DNA from: Ferruginibacter sp.
Lineage (GTDB): Bacteria; Bacteroidota; Bacteroidia; Chitinophagales; Chitinophagaceae
Reading direction: 5' to 3'
NCBI GenBank assembly: GCA_025350645.1
Contig: JANXXM010000024.1
Span: 1-34,974 of the forward strand
Length of the DNA: 34,974 nt
A program made the translations under genes and the position numbers. Below the pieces are notes generated by a model. That model did no database searches and had not been told where the DNA came from. It worked only from the letters and a program-made list of their open reading frames with translations. Positions within the stretch are counted from its first letter, which is position 1, and each line of letters opens with the position of its first letter. Positions 5,839-13,396 of the stretch are shown piece by piece.

Positions 5839-6540
5839 CTACTTATTTAAAAAGATTGTATCATCTACTCCCTTGTTAATGGTATATGATTTAAAAACAA
5901 GTTCTGCTTTTCCTTTCTTTCTTTTTTCCGGATCTTTTTCTTTTGGCATATTTGGGGCTGCGCCATCATCAAAGTCGAAAGTAACTCCCTTAGGTAACTT
6001 GTAATCTTTTGCATTAAAAGAAAAAATTAATTTATCTGGCAAGCCAAATGCTGCATAAGTGCCGTACGTCATTTCTAATGCATACGTTCCATTATCTCTT
6101 GTAGTAGTTTCAGCTTTTAGAATTAAACTTCTTGCCTCATCAATGTATACTGTACTTAGTATTACATCACCCGTTTTATCTGCAGGTAATAAGGTAGCTA
6201 CTCTTACTACTATTCCTTTTATATTATCAGTACCGGCATCTATTACTTTAAATTTATCGCTGCCGGTAAGGTTATTTAAATTTAAACTTACTGCACCTTT
6301 AGGTATAAAAGAAATGCCCCGCTCACTTTTAAGTTTTAGTTTATTAGGCTTTTTAAAATAGATTTTCACTTTTGCAATGGGCACTTTTAAGAACGCCACA
6401 TTGGTTTTCATTACAGCACTAGCTTCATAATCATTCACCGTTTCAATTTTTGCTTTTGCTTTATTGAGTAACGTATTTATATCTTGCGCTTGTACAAAAC
6501 CTGTGCTTAAGAGTAAGCATACTATTAATAATTTCTTCAT
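5839..6540 (-). CDS. LolA-like periplasmic lipoprotein-carrier / outer-membrane lipoprotein-sorting protein
   Basis: A 233-residue exported protein. Residues 1-18 are a Sec signal peptide (ends VQA|Q). The mature part begins with INTLLNKAKAKIETVNDYEAS and continues with IYFKKPNKLKLKSERG, the pattern of the LolA/LolB-fold superfamily, in which an incomplete beta-barrel holds a lipid or lipoprotein acyl chain in the periplasm. A charged, Lys/Glu-rich insertion (PKEKDPEKRKKGK) lies near residues 199-214. It is 154 nt downstream of the ABC-2 exporter genes and on the same strand, so it might hand on what that exporter releases; this is inference. The call rests on fold-level resemblance, and it could equally be a different LolA-like carrier. 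Confidence 0.65.
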   Translation of the reverse strand: MKKLLIVCLLLSTGFVQAQDINTLLNKAKAKIETVNDYEASAVMKTNVAFLKVPIAKVKIYFKKPNKLKLKSERGISFIPKGAVSLNLNNLTGSDKFKVIDAGTDNIKGIVVRVATLLPADKTGDVILSTVYIDEARSLILKAETTTRDNGTYALEMTYGTYAAFGLPDKLIFSFNAKDYKLPKGVTFDFDDGAAPNMPKEKDPEKRKKGKAELVFKSYTINKGVDDTIFLNK

Positions 6541-6694
6541 TATTTTATTTAATCTTAAATAATATTATTTAATTTACCGTATACGAATCAATGTTTTTAA
6601 AAAGATAAAACTTAGGGAGTAGTTTGTTAAAGTATATGATCCTCACAACGATAAAAGAGAACGCTTACCCCATTAATTCTGATAAATAATTTCA

Positions 6695-7594
6695 TTAACT
6701 CAAAATATCTTTCTTTTTAAAAAAGAACACTGCTGCGCCAAAGAAAACACCAATATGGGCAAACAAAATAAATAAACTGTTTCTTATAGAAGCCCAGTTT
6801 TCCATACTGCCTTTTATGGGTACATTTTCTGCATCATAAGCTATATAGAAAAAACCTTTCCACCCTACAAGATAAGAAGTGAAAAGCCAAGGTTTTATCG
6901 TTCTATCAATAATGGGTACGTTAAGGTTGGAAATGATGGTACAAACAATAACAATGCACACTGTAGCCACTATTGGCCCAATAGAATTTTCTGCAAAAAC
7001 AGATAATAATAGCGCCAGTGCTGCAATTACGGTTAAAGCTATGGCTGCGTATACAAATGCTGCAAGGTATCGCCACATAACATCATCCTGCGTTATTTGT
7101 AAAATTTCCGACTCCCCATTTTTAGACCTGAAAACCAATAAATCATTGGTACCAAAAATAATCATGCTTAAAAATAAAGCAAGCAAAGCCATAAATACTA
7201 ATAACGCAACAGTGTAAATAATAGAAGCTAAAAACTTTACACCAATGATTTTTTGACGGCTGATGGGCTTTGTTAGTAATAACCTTAATGTACCCATATT
7301 TGCTTCTCCACTAATAGCATCGCCTGCCACTAGTGCAACTAAAATGGGCACTTGTATTAATAGTGTGTTTAAAATCATGTAACACATAAAATACCCATTA
7401 ATAACATTGCCTTTGTCTACCGCAAATGTATCATCCACATTTTGTAATAATATATTAAGGTAACCAGGGTCTGCTTTAAATGCTGCCTGTATAATGAGCA
7501 CAATACCAGCAATAGCAATAAATGCAATATACGTTCTTGGCCTTTTAGATATTTTGTACAATTCAATTTGTAAAAGGCTCCACATGTGTATCAT
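6695..7594 (-). CDS. ABC-2 type transporter permease subunit
   Basis: A 299-residue integral membrane protein with about six hydrophobic segments, the first at about residues 20-40. The second segment is followed by AGDAISGEANMGTLRLLLTKPISRQKIIGVKFL (about 87-119), a motif typical of ABC-2 permeases of the NatB/bacitracin-export type. It pairs with the ATPase encoded just upstream. The reading frames overlap by 32 nt (7563-7594), or 23 nt if Met4 is the true start; translational coupling is likely. Substrate unknown: sodium, antibiotic or lipid export are all seen in this family. Confidence 0.9.
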   Translation of the reverse strand: MIHMWSLLQIELYKISKRPRTYIAFIAIAGIVLIIQAAFKADPGYLNILLQNVDDTFAVDKGNVINGYFMCYMILNTLLIQVPILVALVAGDAISGEANMGTLRLLLTKPISRQKIIGVKFLASIIYTVALLVFMALLALFLSMIIFGTNDLLVFRSKNGESEILQITQDDVMWRYLAAFVYAAIALTVIAALALLLSVFAENSIGPIVATVCIVIVCTIISNLNVPIIDRTIKPWLFTSYLVGWKGFFYIAYDAENVPIKGSMENWASIRNSLFILFAHIGVFFGAAVFFFKKKDILS

Positions 7595-8495
7595 TATTGG
7601 TAAGTGATAAAAAATAATCTTCTAGAGAGTGGCGGGGTTGCAGCGCAAGTACGCCTATATCCATATTGGAAAGAGATGATGCTAATGATGGTATATCATT
7701 TTTATTTAGTCGTAGCCTAATGTACCTGCCATTGTTTTCTAAGAAATTTGCCCATTTGCTTTGTTCTAATTTGTAAAGAGCGTCAGCATCATTGGTAGTT
7801 TCTATCTGTAATAAAGTATTTGCCGGGTCCAGCAATTCTTTTACATTTCCTTCAACAACTTTTTTGCCTTTATGAATAATGATCATTCTATTGGCTACTA
7901 CTTCTATTTCGTTTAATAAATGTGAGGACACAATTACTGTTTTACCCATTTCTTTGCTTAAACGAAGAATCATATTTCGCATATCTGCAATGCCTTGAGG
8001 GTCTAAACCATTAGTAGGCTCGTCTAAGATTACCAATTTTGGTTCGTGTATAAGTGCAATGGCAATACCAAGGCGTTGTTTCATTCCCTGGCTAAAGGTC
8101 TTTACTTTACTTTGGTATCTATCCGCAAGGCCAGCAGTTTCCAACTGCTGCATTATTACTGTACGAGAAGCTTTTATACCACTCATTTTTGCGAAAATGC
8201 GTAAATTATCGTAAGCGGATAGGTATTTATACAGATCTGGGCGCTCTATTATTGCACCCGTTTGCCGTAACATCTCGTTTTTATCATGATCAATATTTTT
8301 TTCAAAATATTCAATCGTACCATTTGTAGGAGTAATTAATTTAAGTAACATGCGGAGGGTAGTAGATTTACCTGCTCCATTTTGACCGAGAAAACCATAT
8401 ACATCTCCCTGATTTACAGTGAATGATAAGTTGGTTACTGCATTGGTGTCCTTAAACTTTTTGGAAAGGTTTGTAACCTTAAGCATCAAATTCAT
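7563..8495 (-). CDS. ABC transporter ATP-binding protein (NatA/CcmA-like)
   Basis: A 310-residue ATPase subunit for the ABC-2 permease that overlaps its 3' end. Visible motifs: Walker A GQNGAGKST (37-45), Q-loop region AIIERPDLYKYLSAYDNL (81-98), signature FSQGMKQR (134-141), Walker B LVILDEPTNGLDP (154-166) and H-loop His192 in VSSHLL. All catalytic residues are present. The C-terminal 90 residues after the nucleotide-binding domain are the usual extension of single-domain export ATPases of this type. Met1 or Met4 could start translation; both fit. The upstream minus-strand sequence has TATATTTT at about 8528-8535, one base from the Bacteroidota -7 box. Confidence 0.95.
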   Translation of the reverse strand: MNLMLKVTNLSKKFKDTNAVTNLSFTVNQGDVYGFLGQNGAGKSTTLRMLLKLITPTNGTIEYFEKNIDHDKNEMLRQTGAIIERPDLYKYLSAYDNLRIFAKMSGIKASRTVIMQQLETAGLADRYQSKVKTFSQGMKQRLGIAIALIHEPKLVILDEPTNGLDPQGIADMRNMILRLSKEMGKTVIVSSHLLNEIEVVANRMIIIHKGKKVVEGNVKELLDPANTLLQIETTNDADALYKLEQSKWANFLENNGRYIRLRLNKNDIPSLASSLSNMDIGVLALQPRHSLEDYFLSLTNNDTHVEPFTN

Positions 8496-8561
8496 AGCGT
8501 AAAAGTACTCTCTAATTTTCGGGTAAAAATATATTTTTTAAAAAATAAAACGTAAAAACAC

Positions 8562-8590
8562 TTGTTTTATAAAATCTCTTCCTATATTTG
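8562..8590 (+). promoter_or_regulatory. Bacteroidota-type promoter for the 108-residue secreted protein gene
   Basis: TATATTTG at 8583-8590 exactly fits the TAnnTTTG -7 box of Bacteroidota. A TTG at 8562-8564 lies 18 nt upstream, close to the usual -33 spacing. It would give a 5' UTR of roughly 110 nt before the ATG at 8709, unusually long beside the other genes here. Confidence 0.65.
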
Positions 8591-8708
8591 TTCTACCAAT
8601 TAGAAGTTTTACTACAGATAGTAACAATAATTCTCTCTTAAACTAAAACTTAATTGATCCACTTTTACTCTGATAAACTGTTTTAATAACAATAAAAAAC
8701 AGTCTACG

Positions 8709-9035
8709 ATGAAATTCTTACTAACAATTATCGCAATAATTCTTGTAGTTTTTAATGTATCTGCTAAATCAGTAGAAGACATAAAGTTAGGTACAAATAT
8801 TACAACTAAGAAAGTAGAAGTAAGGTTTACTTCAAAATTTAAGAAAAATACAGCAGCTACTTTTACAGTTACCAATGCAGATGGAGTAATAGTAAGTATG
8901 CAAACCTCTCAACTTGTTTTTGGTGCAAACAGTATATGTATGTGCGATACAATGGAACTTGCAGAAGGTACTTATATAGTTACGATGGTTTCAAAAAACA
9001 AAATACGTACAACTCAGTTTATTATCTGGAAATAA
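8709..9035 (+). CDS. Small secreted beta-sandwich-like protein of unknown function
   Basis: A 108-residue protein with a clear Sec signal peptide (residues 1-19, ends VSA|K). The mature part of about 89 residues alternates hydrophobic and polar residues with turns (VEVRFTSKFKKNTAATFTVTN, EGTYIVTMVSKNKIRTTQFIIWK). This suggests a single Ig-like beta-sandwich, resembling the C-terminal domains and DUF3244-like small proteins of Bacteroidota. There is a CxC pair (CMC, about residues 77-79). It stands alone, with its own promoter and terminator. No function can be assigned. It could be a periplasmic or surface protein of the T9SS C-terminal-domain-like fold. Confidence 0.75.
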   Translation: MKFLLTIIAIILVVFNVSAKSVEDIKLGTNITTKKVEVRFTSKFKKNTAATFTVTNADGVIVSMQTSQLVFGANSICMCDTMELAEGTYIVTMVSKNKIRTTQFIIWK

Positions 9036-9094
9036 TCATCTACCTCAGTTATTATAATTCATAGTTACGTTTTTACAAACTATGAATTTCCCAC

Positions 9095-9128
9095 AATGCC
9101 ACTTCCCTAAAGAGTGGCATTATTTTTT
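9095..9128 (+). terminator. Rho-independent terminator
   Basis: A perfect 9-bp stem (AATGCCACT at 9095-9103, AGTGGCATT at 9113-9121) with a 9-nt loop, followed by ATTTTTT. It is oriented to end the small secreted protein gene and stops 11 nt short of the convergent regulator gene. Confidence 0.85.
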
Positions 9129-9138
9129 GGCACTTATG

Positions 9139-9423
9139 TTATGTATGTGTGTATGATTGTAATGCTTTTACATAATCATCAAAGGCAATAATTCCTTTAT
9201 CCGTTATTTTACAAAGTGTTTGAGGATAATTATCTTTAAAACGCTTTGTTATATCTATATAACCAACCTCTTTTAATTTATTGAGTTGAACACTTAAATT
9301 ACCTGCAGTAGCGCCGGTTTTTTCTTTTATAAAAGTAAACTCTGCCTCCTTTACTGCTACTAGTAAACTCATAGCACCTAGTCTGAGCTGAGCGTGTAAT
9401 ATGGGATCCAATTCTTTAAACAT
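9139..9423 (-). CDS. Winged-helix DNA-binding transcriptional regulator (HTH_34/MarR-like)
   Basis: A 94-residue single-domain wHTH protein. HPILHAQLRLGAMSLL-type helix 1 (here PILHAQLRLGAMSLLVAVKE, 7-26), a FTFIKEKTGATAGNLSVQLNKLKEVGYI recognition region (29-56) and a KRFKDNYPQTLCKITDKG wing (60-77) match the small ArsR/MarR-like winged-helix family common in Bacteroidota, usually dimeric repressors. No ligand-binding domain is present. It is the last gene of a four-gene minus-strand unit, and its start overlaps the upstream membrane-protein gene by 8 nt. It may regulate that operon or act with the membrane protein; this is inference. Confidence 0.88.
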   Translation of the reverse strand: MFKELDPILHAQLRLGAMSLLVAVKEAEFTFIKEKTGATAGNLSVQLNKLKEVGYIDITKRFKDNYPQTLCKITDKGIIAFDDYVKALQSYTHT

Positions 9424-10009
9424 TTACCTGCTGTTGTTGTTTATACCTTCCCCATAAAATAATACCAGGTATAAACCAGGCAAATAAACCGCATGCTGCC
9501 ATGAGTAAAAGATTTGCACCAAAACTGGTGTAGATAGAGATTACTGCTATTAACCAACAAAGTATACCGCCAATTATCATTGGTTTAAAACCAGTAACAC
9601 CACCAGTTACAAACGTAGGAATACCATAGAGCATCATAAACAAAGTAGTAGTTTGATAATCTGAATGATTGCCTGTGTAAAAACTGGTGATGAATATACA
9701 AATTCCAAAAGCTATCCACACAAAGCGTATGGCTGTTTCATTGTGAGATGTAAATTTTTTCTGTTGCTTTTCTTTTATACCAAAATATATCTGGGGAAGG
9801 AGTGCGAAAACGGTAAGCCACCAGATATTAAACCTAATATGCAATTTATAAGTGTATTGTAGCCAGGAAATAATGCTGCAAGTAACTATTATTGTACCCC
9901 AAACAATAGCTGCAATACCTTTTGTAACATAACTGCGTTTAGCTTTACCTATCATTTCAGTAATAAGCTTTAGACTTTCCTCTTGTGTAAAGGATTGTTC
10001 ATTTTGCAT
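9416..10009 (-). CDS. Six-helix integral membrane protein of unknown function
   Basis: A 197-residue membrane protein with a soluble, acidic then basic N-terminus (1-30) and six predicted transmembrane segments at about 31-51, 62-78, 93-111, 119-140, 142-163 and 165-188, ending in a short Gln-rich tail. I recognise no catalytic motif. Its stop overlaps the start of the winged-helix gene by 8 nt, and it begins 9 nt after the TPR-like gene ends. Physical coupling to a small DNA-binding protein hints at a membrane sensor or anti-regulator role, but the sequence does not show it. Confidence 0.85.
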   Translation of the reverse strand: MQNEQSFTQEESLKLITEMIGKAKRSYVTKGIAAIVWGTIIVTCSIISWLQYTYKLHIRFNIWWLTVFALLPQIYFGIKEKQQKKFTSHNETAIRFVWIAFGICIFITSFYTGNHSDYQTTTLFMMLYGIPTFVTGGVTGFKPMIIGGILCWLIAVISIYTSFGANLLLMAACGLFAWFIPGIILWGRYKQQQQVNV

Positions 10010-10018
10010 ACTAATTTA

Positions 10019-10666
10019 TTATTTGCATTGATTAATGAGCATATCAGCATAAGATTTACCCCAGTAAGGTGAAACTTCTGTTGCTGGTTTAAATGTTTTA
10101 AATTTTTCTACAGCTATTTCCAGTTGTGGCTTTGCAGTTTTGCAGCCGCCACCAAATTGCTCCGGAGTATATTGGAGATTTTGTCCTTTAAGCAGGTATG
10201 GGCGTGGGTTTGATGGGTCCTGCTCTTTTGCTTTTTTTAGCAGATTATCACTCAATGCACCATATTGCATATAACGTTGCTGTGGATTCAGCATTAATTG
10301 TAAACTTGCTATCATACTTTTTACGCAGCTTATTTCTGAATTGCCTGGTTGTAAAGAATCTGCTTTGTTTATAAGCGCTGTAGCCTTTTCTGCAATGGCG
10401 TCATTATTAACCGGGTTTTTTTGCATAAACCCGTAATTTACTCTGCTGTAAGCCGCATAATAATATGGCAGCCACTGGTTCTTTTCCGATGTACCTATTC
10501 TTTCGAAGGTATTAGCCAGATCTACAAATGCATCCGGCTTGTTATTGATGGATGCAGAATCTACAAGAGAAATATTTTTTTTCATTGCAGAAATAAATTT
10601 TTCACTTTGACAAAATGATGCAAATGATAAAAGTAAAAAAGCAGTTAGCAGCATTAAATTTTTCAT
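10019..10666 (-). CDS. Exported TPR-like repeat protein
   Basis: A 215-residue exported protein with signal peptide 1-19 (ends FC|Q or SFC|QS). The mature chain is helical, with TPR-like spacing: DAFVDLANTFERIG, WLPYYYAAYSRVNYG, AIAEKATALINKADSL, YLLKGQNLQY. The C-terminus holds the motif EQFGGGCKTAKPQLEIAVEKFKTF followed by PYWG...LINQC. This GGGC...F.P..P.WG pattern is one I associate with uncharacterised Bacteroidota exported proteins. It lies 28 nt after the TonB receptor gene and 9 nt before the membrane-protein gene. It is probably periplasmic, perhaps a partner of the receptor. Function unknown. Confidence 0.8.
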   Translation of the reverse strand: MKNLMLLTAFLLLSFASFCQSEKFISAMKKNISLVDSASINNKPDAFVDLANTFERIGTSEKNQWLPYYYAAYSRVNYGFMQKNPVNNDAIAEKATALINKADSLQPGNSEISCVKSMIASLQLMLNPQQRYMQYGALSDNLLKKAKEQDPSNPRPYLLKGQNLQYTPEQFGGGCKTAKPQLEIAVEKFKTFKPATEVSPYWGKSYADMLINQCK

Positions 10667-10694
10667 GATGTTGGTTTTTAATTTTAAAAAAATA

Positions 10695-12956
10695 TTATAA
10701 ATTATTGTTTATTGCATCCTGCGTTCTGTCTATACCAAAACTAAGAAAGCACCCAATAAACAAAAATCTTTTTGATGGAGGAATAATTGCTTGTTTATTA
10801 GAGTTAAGAGAAGAATAATTATACCCATAAATCTGCGGCTGCCCCAGCACGTTGGTGAACGAAAGTACCCAAACAGAAAATGTTTTTTTTCCGATTTTGC
10901 CAAGGTTAGGCAAATAATTTAAACTAAAAGAAAGACTGTTATAATTTATTGTACGACCTTCCTCTTTTACAATATATTTTGCCTGGGTATTATCAAAACC
11001 AAGGTTATAATATGGCCTGCCTGTAGCAAAATTATAACTGGCATTAAAACCGGTTTTCCAAGGAAGTACAAATTTTTTGGCTACAAAAGAACTGGTGTGT
11101 GTGGCTGCAAAAGTTGGTCTTATACTACCCGGAAAATTAATATAATTTCTTTTAGTATCCAGATAAGAATACGATATCCAGTAATCCAGATTTTTCACTG
11201 TTTTCTTATCTCTCCAAAATAGCTCAAAGCCTTTGGCATAGCCATATCCATTATTATTTGCAGCCACTTCCCTGCCATTGTTGTTGGGTAACGTTTTAAA
11301 TAGATCGTTGTATTTTTTATAAAAAAGTTCTGATCTGAAAATGCGCTCATTACTAGTTTTTTGATATTGTAAAATATAATGTGTGGCTTCGGAATATTTA
11401 AGATCAGTAACAATAGCTGGCAGGTATTTTCTTTCTGGATTTTGATAAAATATACCATAAGCAAATGATACCTGGCTTTTATCTTTTAATTTATATGCCA
11501 GCGATACTCTTGGCGCAATATTCCAGCGGTTCATTAAAGTAGAATGCTCTAACCTTGTACCTGCTTTTAATGCAATATCCCTGGTAAGATAAAGATCTGT
11601 TTCTATAAAAAAAGCATTGAGGTTATCATTTACTTTGTCTGTAAATTTATTTCCATTAAATAAAGTATATGCTGTTTTTTCGTTGCTCAAAAAATAATCA
11701 GTGCCAAACCTCATGGCGTTAATACCATTTAAACGCTTCTCCATTACTATCCTTGCCTGTGCATAAATGGCGCTGTTTACTAAAGAAAAATTTTTGAACG
11801 AATAACCATTAGGTATAGAAAATTGCTGTTTATTATTTTCGGCATCCTGCAGTTCATTCATAATATTATCTTTATTGGTACTAAAACTAAGGCCTGTATT
11901 TATTTTCCAACCTTTGCCTATATTTTCCCGCCAGCTTATGTTTTGAAAAGTATTAAAATTTTCTATTTCAAAAGCGTCTTTTAGCAAAAGCGAATCAATA
12001 TCTGCTGTGCGCAGAGCCGTACGGTTCCAGCTTGCATATCCATAATATTTAATAAAACCACCCTTTGTTGTTTTAATGCGAAAATTTGCATCTCCTTGAT
12101 GATATAATGGAGTTTTATAAAAATCTGGCTTTTGCTTAATAACTGCAAATGCAGGAGCCAGGTTTGTATAATTATAAGATATACCCCATGCTGCTTTTTT
12201 ATTTTTAGCTAATTTTTGGATACCAGCGCCTACTCCAATAACAGATATATTTACGTCTGCTTCTGTACGCTCTGGCAAATCTGCACTTTCTAAAATAAGT
12301 GCTGCGGATAATGCCTGGCCGTACAACGCCGAATATCCGCCTGTAGAAAATATAGTACCCTTAAAAAGAAAGGGATTAAACCTGCCCCTTGTAGCTAAAC
12401 CGGGTAAACTACTATAAAAAAAATTATTTACTAGGCTTCCATCTATAAAAATCTTACTTTCTGTAGCTGAACCACCTCGTACAAAAAGACCTTCACTCTC
12501 GCCCACCTGTTGAGAGCCGGGAAGCGTTTTTAATGCCCCTGTAATGTCCGCATTACCACCCGCTGTTGTTACAATATCCAACGAAGTAAGTACTGTTCCC
12601 TTCTTTTTATCACTTGCCTCAAATGCACCTGCGGTTATCGTTACTGCATTTAATTCCGTTATCAATTCCTTAATAGTTATGTTTTGATCTAAATTCTTTT
12701 CTTCAATTGATATTTTATTTTTATATGATGAATAACCGGAGAGGGTTACTTCTAAATAATGTTCTCCTTTTTCTGTTGTCAAAAAAGAAAAATTACCCAA
12801 AGAATCTGTGGTAGTTCCATCGTAAGAATCTTTTATAACTACACTTGCTCCCCGTAGTATTTTATTTTTGTTATCTGTAAGTTTACCCGATATTTTAATT
12901 TGAGCAGGAGCACTTAAACTCCCCAAAAATAAAGAAAATAGAATAATACTTTTCAT
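10695..12956 (-). CDS. TonB-dependent outer-membrane receptor
   Basis: A 753-residue outer-membrane receptor, not of the SusC type. Signal peptide 1-18 (ends APA|Q), carboxypeptidase-regulatory-like domain at about 20-95 (ISGKLTDNKNKILRGASVVI), then a plug from about 105 (NAVTITAGAFEASDKKKGTVL through GGNADITGALKTLPGSQQVGESEGLFVRGGSATESKIFIDG). The remainder is beta-barrel. About ten residues follow the last clear strand (FLSFGIDRTQDAINNNL), so the terminal aromatic residue usual for barrels is not last. It is the first gene of the four-gene minus-strand operon. Substrate unknown; no siderophore or cobalamin gene is nearby, and no cobalamin riboswitch is seen upstream. Confidence 0.93.
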   Translation of the reverse strand: MKSIILFSLFLGSLSAPAQIKISGKLTDNKNKILRGASVVIKDSYDGTTTDSLGNFSFLTTEKGEHYLEVTLSGYSSYKNKISIEEKNLDQNITIKELITELNAVTITAGAFEASDKKKGTVLTSLDIVTTAGGNADITGALKTLPGSQQVGESEGLFVRGGSATESKIFIDGSLVNNFFYSSLPGLATRGRFNPFLFKGTIFSTGGYSALYGQALSAALILESADLPERTEADVNISVIGVGAGIQKLAKNKKAAWGISYNYTNLAPAFAVIKQKPDFYKTPLYHQGDANFRIKTTKGGFIKYYGYASWNRTALRTADIDSLLLKDAFEIENFNTFQNISWRENIGKGWKINTGLSFSTNKDNIMNELQDAENNKQQFSIPNGYSFKNFSLVNSAIYAQARIVMEKRLNGINAMRFGTDYFLSNEKTAYTLFNGNKFTDKVNDNLNAFFIETDLYLTRDIALKAGTRLEHSTLMNRWNIAPRVSLAYKLKDKSQVSFAYGIFYQNPERKYLPAIVTDLKYSEATHYILQYQKTSNERIFRSELFYKKYNDLFKTLPNNNGREVAANNNGYGYAKGFELFWRDKKTVKNLDYWISYSYLDTKRNYINFPGSIRPTFAATHTSSFVAKKFVLPWKTGFNASYNFATGRPYYNLGFDNTQAKYIVKEEGRTINYNSLSFSLNYLPNLGKIGKKTFSVWVLSFTNVLGQPQIYGYNYSSLNSNKQAIIPPSKRFLFIGCFLSFGIDRTQDAINNNL

Positions 12957-13396
12957 TTCAAAAATTTACACAAACGTAAAGTAGTTTATTTTATAAACCA
13001 AATTATTTTTGATTTTTTAAAATTAATATTAAAAAGTTGAAAGTTTTTTTATCAACTATTTTAATGGTAAGTATATGATAATCATAAAATTAGTAACTTA
13101 GTTTTATCATAGAATGCAATGATGTATTATTTAGTTCTTAAAAATAATTTTTTCTTTCGGGGTGCCTTTTGTAATTTAGCAATAGAATTTAATGGGTTAG
13201 TAAGTACAAAGGGCTATCAGAAATGATAGCCCTTTTACTTTTTAATTATCTGATATTTTTTTTAAAGCGTTTATATATTCCTTAAAAAAATGCTAACGTA
13301 ATATTTTTCTGAGCTCGTGTACAAAAAAATTAAAAAAATAAAATCGTAAAAATGATTGCGTGTTTTGTAATAAATGAAATGCGTTTATTTAAAAAA
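12957..13396. other. Intergenic region between the TonB receptor gene and purD, with an orphan hairpin
   Basis: Transcription from the receptor gene starts leftward from here, and purD transcription ends here from the right. No coding frame is seen. It holds a 13-nt palindrome TATGATAATCATA at 13074-13086 and a strong hairpin at 13211-13232 described separately. The remainder is AT-rich and unremarkable. Confidence 0.5.
13211..13242 (+). terminator. Strong hairpin with GAAA tetraloop, plus-strand terminator (no gene upstream)
   Basis: A perfect 9-bp stem (GGGCTATCA at 13211-13219, TGATAGCCC at 13224-13232) closes a GAAA tetraloop and is followed by TTTTACTTTTT. In this orientation it is a textbook terminator, yet no plus-strand coding gene lies upstream; the nearest transcripts are on the other strand. 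On the minus strand the tail is TTTGTACTT, weaker, so it might also terminate purD about 165 nt after its stop. Confidence 0.7.

Follow-up and report, generated by a model that had tools for sequence, protein, structure and literature searches.

A probable hus-like porphyrin/haem uptake operon in Ferruginibacter and a candidate operator for its regulator HusC across Bacteroidia

The gum pathogen Porphyromonas gingivalis carries an operon, hus, for the uptake of haem and porphyrin. Its product HusA (PG2227/PGN_2091; PMC10913741) is, in the available part of the structural account, a porphyrin/haem haemophore with a tetratricopeptide repeat (TPR)-like fold and named groove residues, and homologues in free-living Bacteroidetes are already stated there (PMC6173696). 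The neighbouring genes are husD (PG2224/PGN_2088) and husC (PG2225/PGN_2089), HusC being a MarR-family protein proposed as a repressor without experimental characterisation (PMC4222909, available part); PG2226 would correspond to HusB. The accessible portions of published accounts treat HusC and HusD as functionally unknown or as an uncharacterised proposed regulator; the available part of PMC10434189 mentions neither DUF2141 nor any hus gene name or locus tag, and PMC3764172 likewise contains no hus names or tags. Here we describe a relative of this operon in a stretch of 34,974 nucleotides (nt) from Ferruginibacter sp. (contig JANXXM010000024.1 of assembly GCA_025350645.1, positions 1 to 34,974; hereafter the window), together with a palindrome in its promoter that is most likely the binding site of HusC.

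Four minus-strand genes form the locus: a husB-like gene for a TonB-dependent receptor (10695..12956, 753 residues), a husA-like gene for a predicted exported TPR-fold haemophore (10019..10666, 215 residues), a husD-like gene for a six-helix membrane protein (9416..10009, 197 residues) and a husC-like gene for a winged-helix regulator (9139..9423, 94 residues). An initial annotation, made from the sequence alone, had described this quartet as spaced by 28 and 9 nt, with the final pair overlapping by 8 nt; open reading frame coordinates bear out the packing, and Pfam, AlphaFold models and Foldseek bear out the four kinds of product. It had regarded the operon as being of unknown function, which does not hold, the TPR-like protein being homologous to HusA, a protein already solved and studied.

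When the TPR-like protein is represented by a profile built from 24 relatives, the PDB yields one strong protein match, PG_2227 (6bqs/6crl, E 3.3e-53), and the window protein by itself retrieves 6bqs at E 2.2e-36. Its AlphaFold model consists entirely of helices (mean pLDDT 94.2), with HusA as best and sole Foldseek match in the PDB at E <= 0.001 (E 8.3e-12, TM 0.79/0.84). It is identical to HusA at 73 of 184 residues and at seven of ten groove positions (F80, M116, L122, P126, L157, Q160 and Y164 in the HusA numbering of PMC6173696); at the others Met replaces L123, Leu replaces V124 and Tyr replaces W130. Its C-terminal GGGC...PYWG motif had been called conserved: the two glycines and P-x-WG are indeed invariant across the 24 aligned relatives, whereas the cysteine varies and lysine is common in its place. 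An N-terminal signal sequence was judged by eye, and the nearest named relatives come from Ferruginibacter assemblies. Sequence and model alike thus point to a HusA-type haemophore, predicted to bind porphyrin or haem.

The other three genes were matched through a genome, G836, that encodes a HusA 99% identical to PG_2227. In its locus the membrane protein comes first and the winged-helix protein second, followed by the receptor and then HusA; read alongside the order of the locus tags, this arrangement assigns HusD to the membrane protein and HusC to the winged-helix protein. The window receptor shares 30% identity over its full length with the G836 receptor adjoining HusA, and HusA is likewise adjoined by a receptor in 26 of 29 loci from a class-wide survey (L296-L324). 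The window regulator is 50% identical to the G836 HusC-position protein, and the 8-nt overlap of the husD and husC genes is the same in both. The HusD assignment follows locus-tag order and gene position; the window protein matches the husD-position protein of another locus, L357, at 35 of 139 positions (BLASTP E 7e-9). A Pfam scan of the eight proteins encoded at 5839-12956 gave HTH_34 for HusC (E 9.9e-28), CarbopepD_reg_2 for the receptor with a Plug match slightly below the curated cut-off, and nothing secure for the TPR-like or the membrane protein. A PDB entry considered as a clue to the receptor's substrate, 9gbc, was set aside, its match to the receptor profile spanning positions 2-177 only. 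With high confidence, these homologies identify the operon as a relative of hus with another gene order, and the assignment of its candidate operator is held equally firmly.

Upstream of the receptor gene lies a conserved block, ATTTGGTTTATAAAATAAACTACTTTACGTTTG, strongly kept in most receptor-upstream regions among the window and 48 relatives. It contains a 15-bp palindrome, GTTTA-N5-TAAAC, with the window form GTTTATAAAATAAAC (12984..12998, minus strand), between TTTG (12999..13002, minus strand) and a TAnnTTTG element, TACGTTTG (12971..12978, minus strand). Both flanking elements are conserved at a fixed distance, and we take them to be the -33 and -7 promoter boxes of Bacteroidota; the spacer between them is 20 nt in the window. 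A palindrome picked by eye, TTTAC-N6-GTAAA (12965-12980), was dropped when it recurred in just 2 of the 49 regions compared, and a sigma-70 scan (24 sites against 22.9 expected) was not used.

The palindrome follows HusC. We examined 150 nt upstream of 68 loci, setting aside two cut at the 5' end and two receptor loci where the presence of HusC was uncertain (L113 has the exact palindrome, L175 lacks it). Where the receptor comes first and HusC is present (n=46), the palindrome is exact in 44, has one mismatch in 1 and takes a mirror-symmetric form in 1 (L074); at up to one mismatch it occurs in none of five receptor-first loci and none of four HusA-first loci without HusC, and in 3.2% of dinucleotide shuffles. 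The seven HusD-first loci without a receptor carry it as well (five exact, one with one mismatch, one mirror-symmetric, L166), and at L167 a HusD-HusC unit and an adjacent HusA-like unit each have an exact copy. In two HusC-first loci of genus relatives it falls outside the 150 nt: L171 carries it 287 nt upstream with one mismatch, and L177 about 209 nt upstream in exact form; the stretch covered there holds HusC and the upstream palindrome with no receptor, HusA or HusD. The genome of the window has the exact palindrome twice (pattern GTTTAYNNNRTAAAC); the second copy falls inside a predicted gene, and therefore no second regulon target is claimed. Another site, on contig C35 of genome G022, lies at a contig end and is uninformative. 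At L087 (11133) a second exact palindrome stands 30 nt past the end of HusC, with no gene assigned to it.

The association extends across the class. An exact 28-base pattern run against 395 genomes drawn from Bacteroidia returned 66 rows; two were opposite-strand readings, which leaves 64 distinct sites, and 59 of these 64 lie upstream of a same-strand HusC-type gene within 6 kb; a reversed control pattern gave 6 matches. The same genomes hold 68 HusA-type loci. Eighteen have HusC downstream, 15 of them with an exact operator upstream, the remaining three having one mismatch (G394) or a site between HusA and HusD (G233 and G203). The exact operator is found in none of the 48 HusA-type loci without HusC within 6 kb and in neither of the two with HusC on the other side. 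Changes in the palindrome arms follow its symmetry: a scan locating sites by their flanks only, with a profile trained on exact-palindrome loci and a score threshold of 12 that was our choice, passed 89 of 121 loci (32 fell below), 20 of them with changed arms. All seven sites with exactly two arm changes are mirror-symmetric, and 87 of 100 arm pairs are complementary, whereas 2000 shuffles gave at most 85.

Gene order was compared in 121 related loci with HusC, the window included, written here by the last letters of the Hus names. The order of the window, B-A-D-C, occurs in 38 and, judged by these counts, is not a chance arrangement; D-C occurs in 55, B-A-C in 12, D-C-B-A in 8, A-D-C in 3, C alone in 3 and D-C-A in 2. 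D-C denotes loci whose covered stretch holds no receptor pair; some of the 121 loci were covered with short flanks, where neighbours may be missed. The 12 B-A-C loci, with no HusD beside HusC, keep the palindrome (11 exact, and mirror-symmetric L074). The initial annotation had suggested comparing gene neighbourhoods across Bacteroidota for co-occurrence of the four families, and had named homologues of the TPR-like and membrane proteins lying mostly apart from receptor and regulator as evidence against its reading. Such separation is seen in part: no HusC-type gene lies within 6 kb in 48 of the 68 HusA-type loci, and from operator to HusC the distance is 585-764 nt in 36 of 59 pairs, room for HusD only. 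The operon is therefore not one indivisible unit but two modules brought together: the haemophore with its receptor, and HusD with HusC as a portable pair that probably regulates itself.

Other cargo stands behind the operator in a few loci, which likewise makes the operon a joint of two modules. Between operator and HusD, L280 (1476-4018) encodes a DUF2141 protein and then an OMP_b-brl_3 receptor, as L281 does by eye; L285, and by likeness L284, has DUF2141 alone; and L278 has a 176-residue protein without a Pfam match. At L286 (1175-1788) the operator and HusD lie about 600 nt apart, and no gene of at least 70 residues is predicted in between. Small proteins also occur after HusC in receptor-less and receptor-bearing loci alike: the one at L278 (3010-3273) matches Pfam 2TM, and look-alikes were noted by eye at L277 (5423-5704), L287 (2113-2403), L164 (2444-2713) and L165 (6154-6435).

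Taken as a whole, the window very probably carries a Hus-type porphyrin/haem uptake operon in which HusC represses its own operon through the palindrome and HusD is a membrane partner. Exported HusA would bind porphyrin or haem in its hydrophobic groove and hand the cargo to HusB for import across the outer membrane. HusC, product of the last gene, would bind GTTTA-N5-TAAAC as a dimer between the two promoter boxes, keep RNA polymerase away and so shut off its own operon. A position within the promoter spacer suits a repressor, and repression by covering the promoter appears the most likely mode of action. HusD would either modulate HusC or act on imported porphyrin, a role in which our confidence is low. 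The four genes would presumably share one transcript. Terminator-like sites number 9 against 2.8 expected; none falls between one gene of the operon and the next, but four minus-strand ones lie inside husB and husD.

Several observations weigh against this reading. The exact pattern is present for 59 of 104 HusC-type genes in the survey and missing for 45; among 40 of the latter examined, 15 have the palindrome at up to one mismatch, seven have the mirror-symmetric two-change form and 18 have neither, the flank scan finding a candidate site in six of these 18, one of them weak. Counts are not of independent events because the loci include close relatives. Published work, in the parts available, disagrees on whether haem starvation induces husA, and reverse-transcription quantitative PCR of P. 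gingivalis husA under iron and haem depletion gave changes of -1.42/-2.09 fold in one strain and 1.08/1.26 fold in another (PMC10913741); as husA did not rise, the signal may be something other than a shortage of haem. At groove position 164, 13 of the 24 HusA relatives have Tyr or Phe and 11 have Asn or Lys, and porphyrin binding may therefore differ among them. A non-porphyrin, non-haem cargo for the receptor-HusA pair of the window lineage is nonetheless unlikely: 30% receptor identity does not fix a substrate, positions 130 and 164 both vary among the relatives, and the fold has been suggested as co-opted for haem in Porphyromonas (PMC6173696, available part), yet the window protein retains all seven groove residues listed above, Y164 among them. 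We regard it as very improbable that HusC activates by bending the spacer between the boxes. The site does lie where MerR-type activators act, but a 20-nt spacer is ordinary for this promoter type, and on general grounds a dimer over the spacer would be expected to block polymerase.

Two finer models are compatible with repression by HusC and differ in what HusD does. In one, a serious candidate at somewhat less than an even chance, HusC by itself senses its signal (porphyrin, haem or redox state), for which Cys71 in the wing is one possible site, while HusD serves in the inner membrane as effector or transporter and not as sensor. The cysteine is conserved in 91% of 64 HusC sequences, and the 12 loci that keep HusC and palindrome without HusD beside HusC suit a self-sufficient regulator; the HusC of L167, however, has no Cys at position 71, and HusD and HusC are adjacent, often overlapping, also in 55 of the 121 loci where the covered stretch holds no receptor pair. 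The guess of the initial annotation, in which HusD is instead the sensor and holds or releases HusC at the inner membrane, is a tentative possibility. It would accord with the 8-nt overlap in the window and G836, with HusD directly preceding HusC in every order but B-A-C and C alone, and with a conserved N-terminal HusD helix ahead of the first membrane span. The B-A-C loci, unless a HusD copy lies elsewhere in those genomes, argue against an obligatory HusD role and hence against this model, as does a fold search in which HusD had no PDB match at E 0.001 or better. Helices in the HusD model are H9-54, H62-83, H89-115, H120-139, H142-158 and H163-195. A broader version, which we consider doubtful, makes HusD-HusC a portable one-step envelope switch of Bacteroidia: HusD would read an envelope or porphyrin signal and directly capture or free the repressor, which is some 95 residues long and sits on its own promoter. 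Behind one common operator, different lineages would then place different outer-membrane cargo: HusB-HusA, DUF2141 (alone or together with a receptor), a small exported protein, or none at all.

Beyond the operon, a minus-strand gene at 7563..8495 encodes an ATP-binding cassette (ABC) ATPase, a frequent operon neighbour in Chitinophagaceae whose link to the operon is putative; 24 of 115 loci have a strong match downstream of HusC at a distance of 1.5 kb or less. An ABC-2 permease gene (6695-7594) and a LolA-like gene (5839-6540) accompany it on the same strand, after HusC in many Chitinophagaceae loci. Between HusC and these ABC genes the window has a plus-strand gene (8709-9035) with a weak match to a type IX secretion system (T9SS) sorting domain, followed by a plus-strand terminator-like hairpin at 9095-9121. 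Elsewhere in the same genome (contig C98, L161 1-2240) a second HTH_34 protein is flanked by a membrane-like protein of 223 residues and a CreD-like protein, with no palindrome; compared with the HusD profile, the membrane protein reached an hhalign probability of 19.6, and no homology is claimed.

New in this analysis are the proposed operator, the link between it and HusC, and the finding that HusD-HusC is spread as a module by itself; no published description of a HusC operator or a HusD-HusC module was found at the level of titles and abstract openings, with full texts covered in part. HusC gains a base-level candidate operator testable by gel shift, and the roles of HusC and HusD become testable. 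HusD is tied to the operator across Bacteroidia, the HusD-HusC pair also standing before other cargo or without a receptor, and to the known occurrence of HusA homologues in free-living Bacteroidetes are added whole operons with their promoter. If HusC answers to a signal other than iron or haem depletion, the lack of a husA rise under such depletion would be explained.

Among known systems, the closest is hus of P. gingivalis itself, for which the available parts of published accounts describe no operator and no HusC or HusD function; the window has each of its four protein families as well as its palindrome-promoter block, whereas the order is D-C-B-A in Porphyromonas and B-A-D-C in the window. 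For HusC, the sole solved chain matching its profile at E 0.001 or better is PDB 1ub9 (PH1061, E 3.9e-8), a distant archaeal protein listed merely as hypothetical. Systems of the HAAS/DUF1700 type pair PadR or another regulator with a membrane protein. The window resembles them in setting a small winged-helix regulator beside a membrane protein, but its regulator is HTH_34, not PadR. The window membrane protein has no Pfam match, and when 23 HusD members were compared with Pfam at E of 1 or less, the 25 families shown out of 32 included neither HAAS nor DUF1700. As under FecIR-type control, the window has an envelope-spanning receptor operon with its own regulator; unlike there, the receptor lacks STN and the eight proteins scanned against Pfam include no sigma/anti-sigma match. 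The proposal of an envelope-spanning uptake circuit without FecIR-type genes is thus supported, and the circuit is best read as a Hus-type operon carrying its own regulator.

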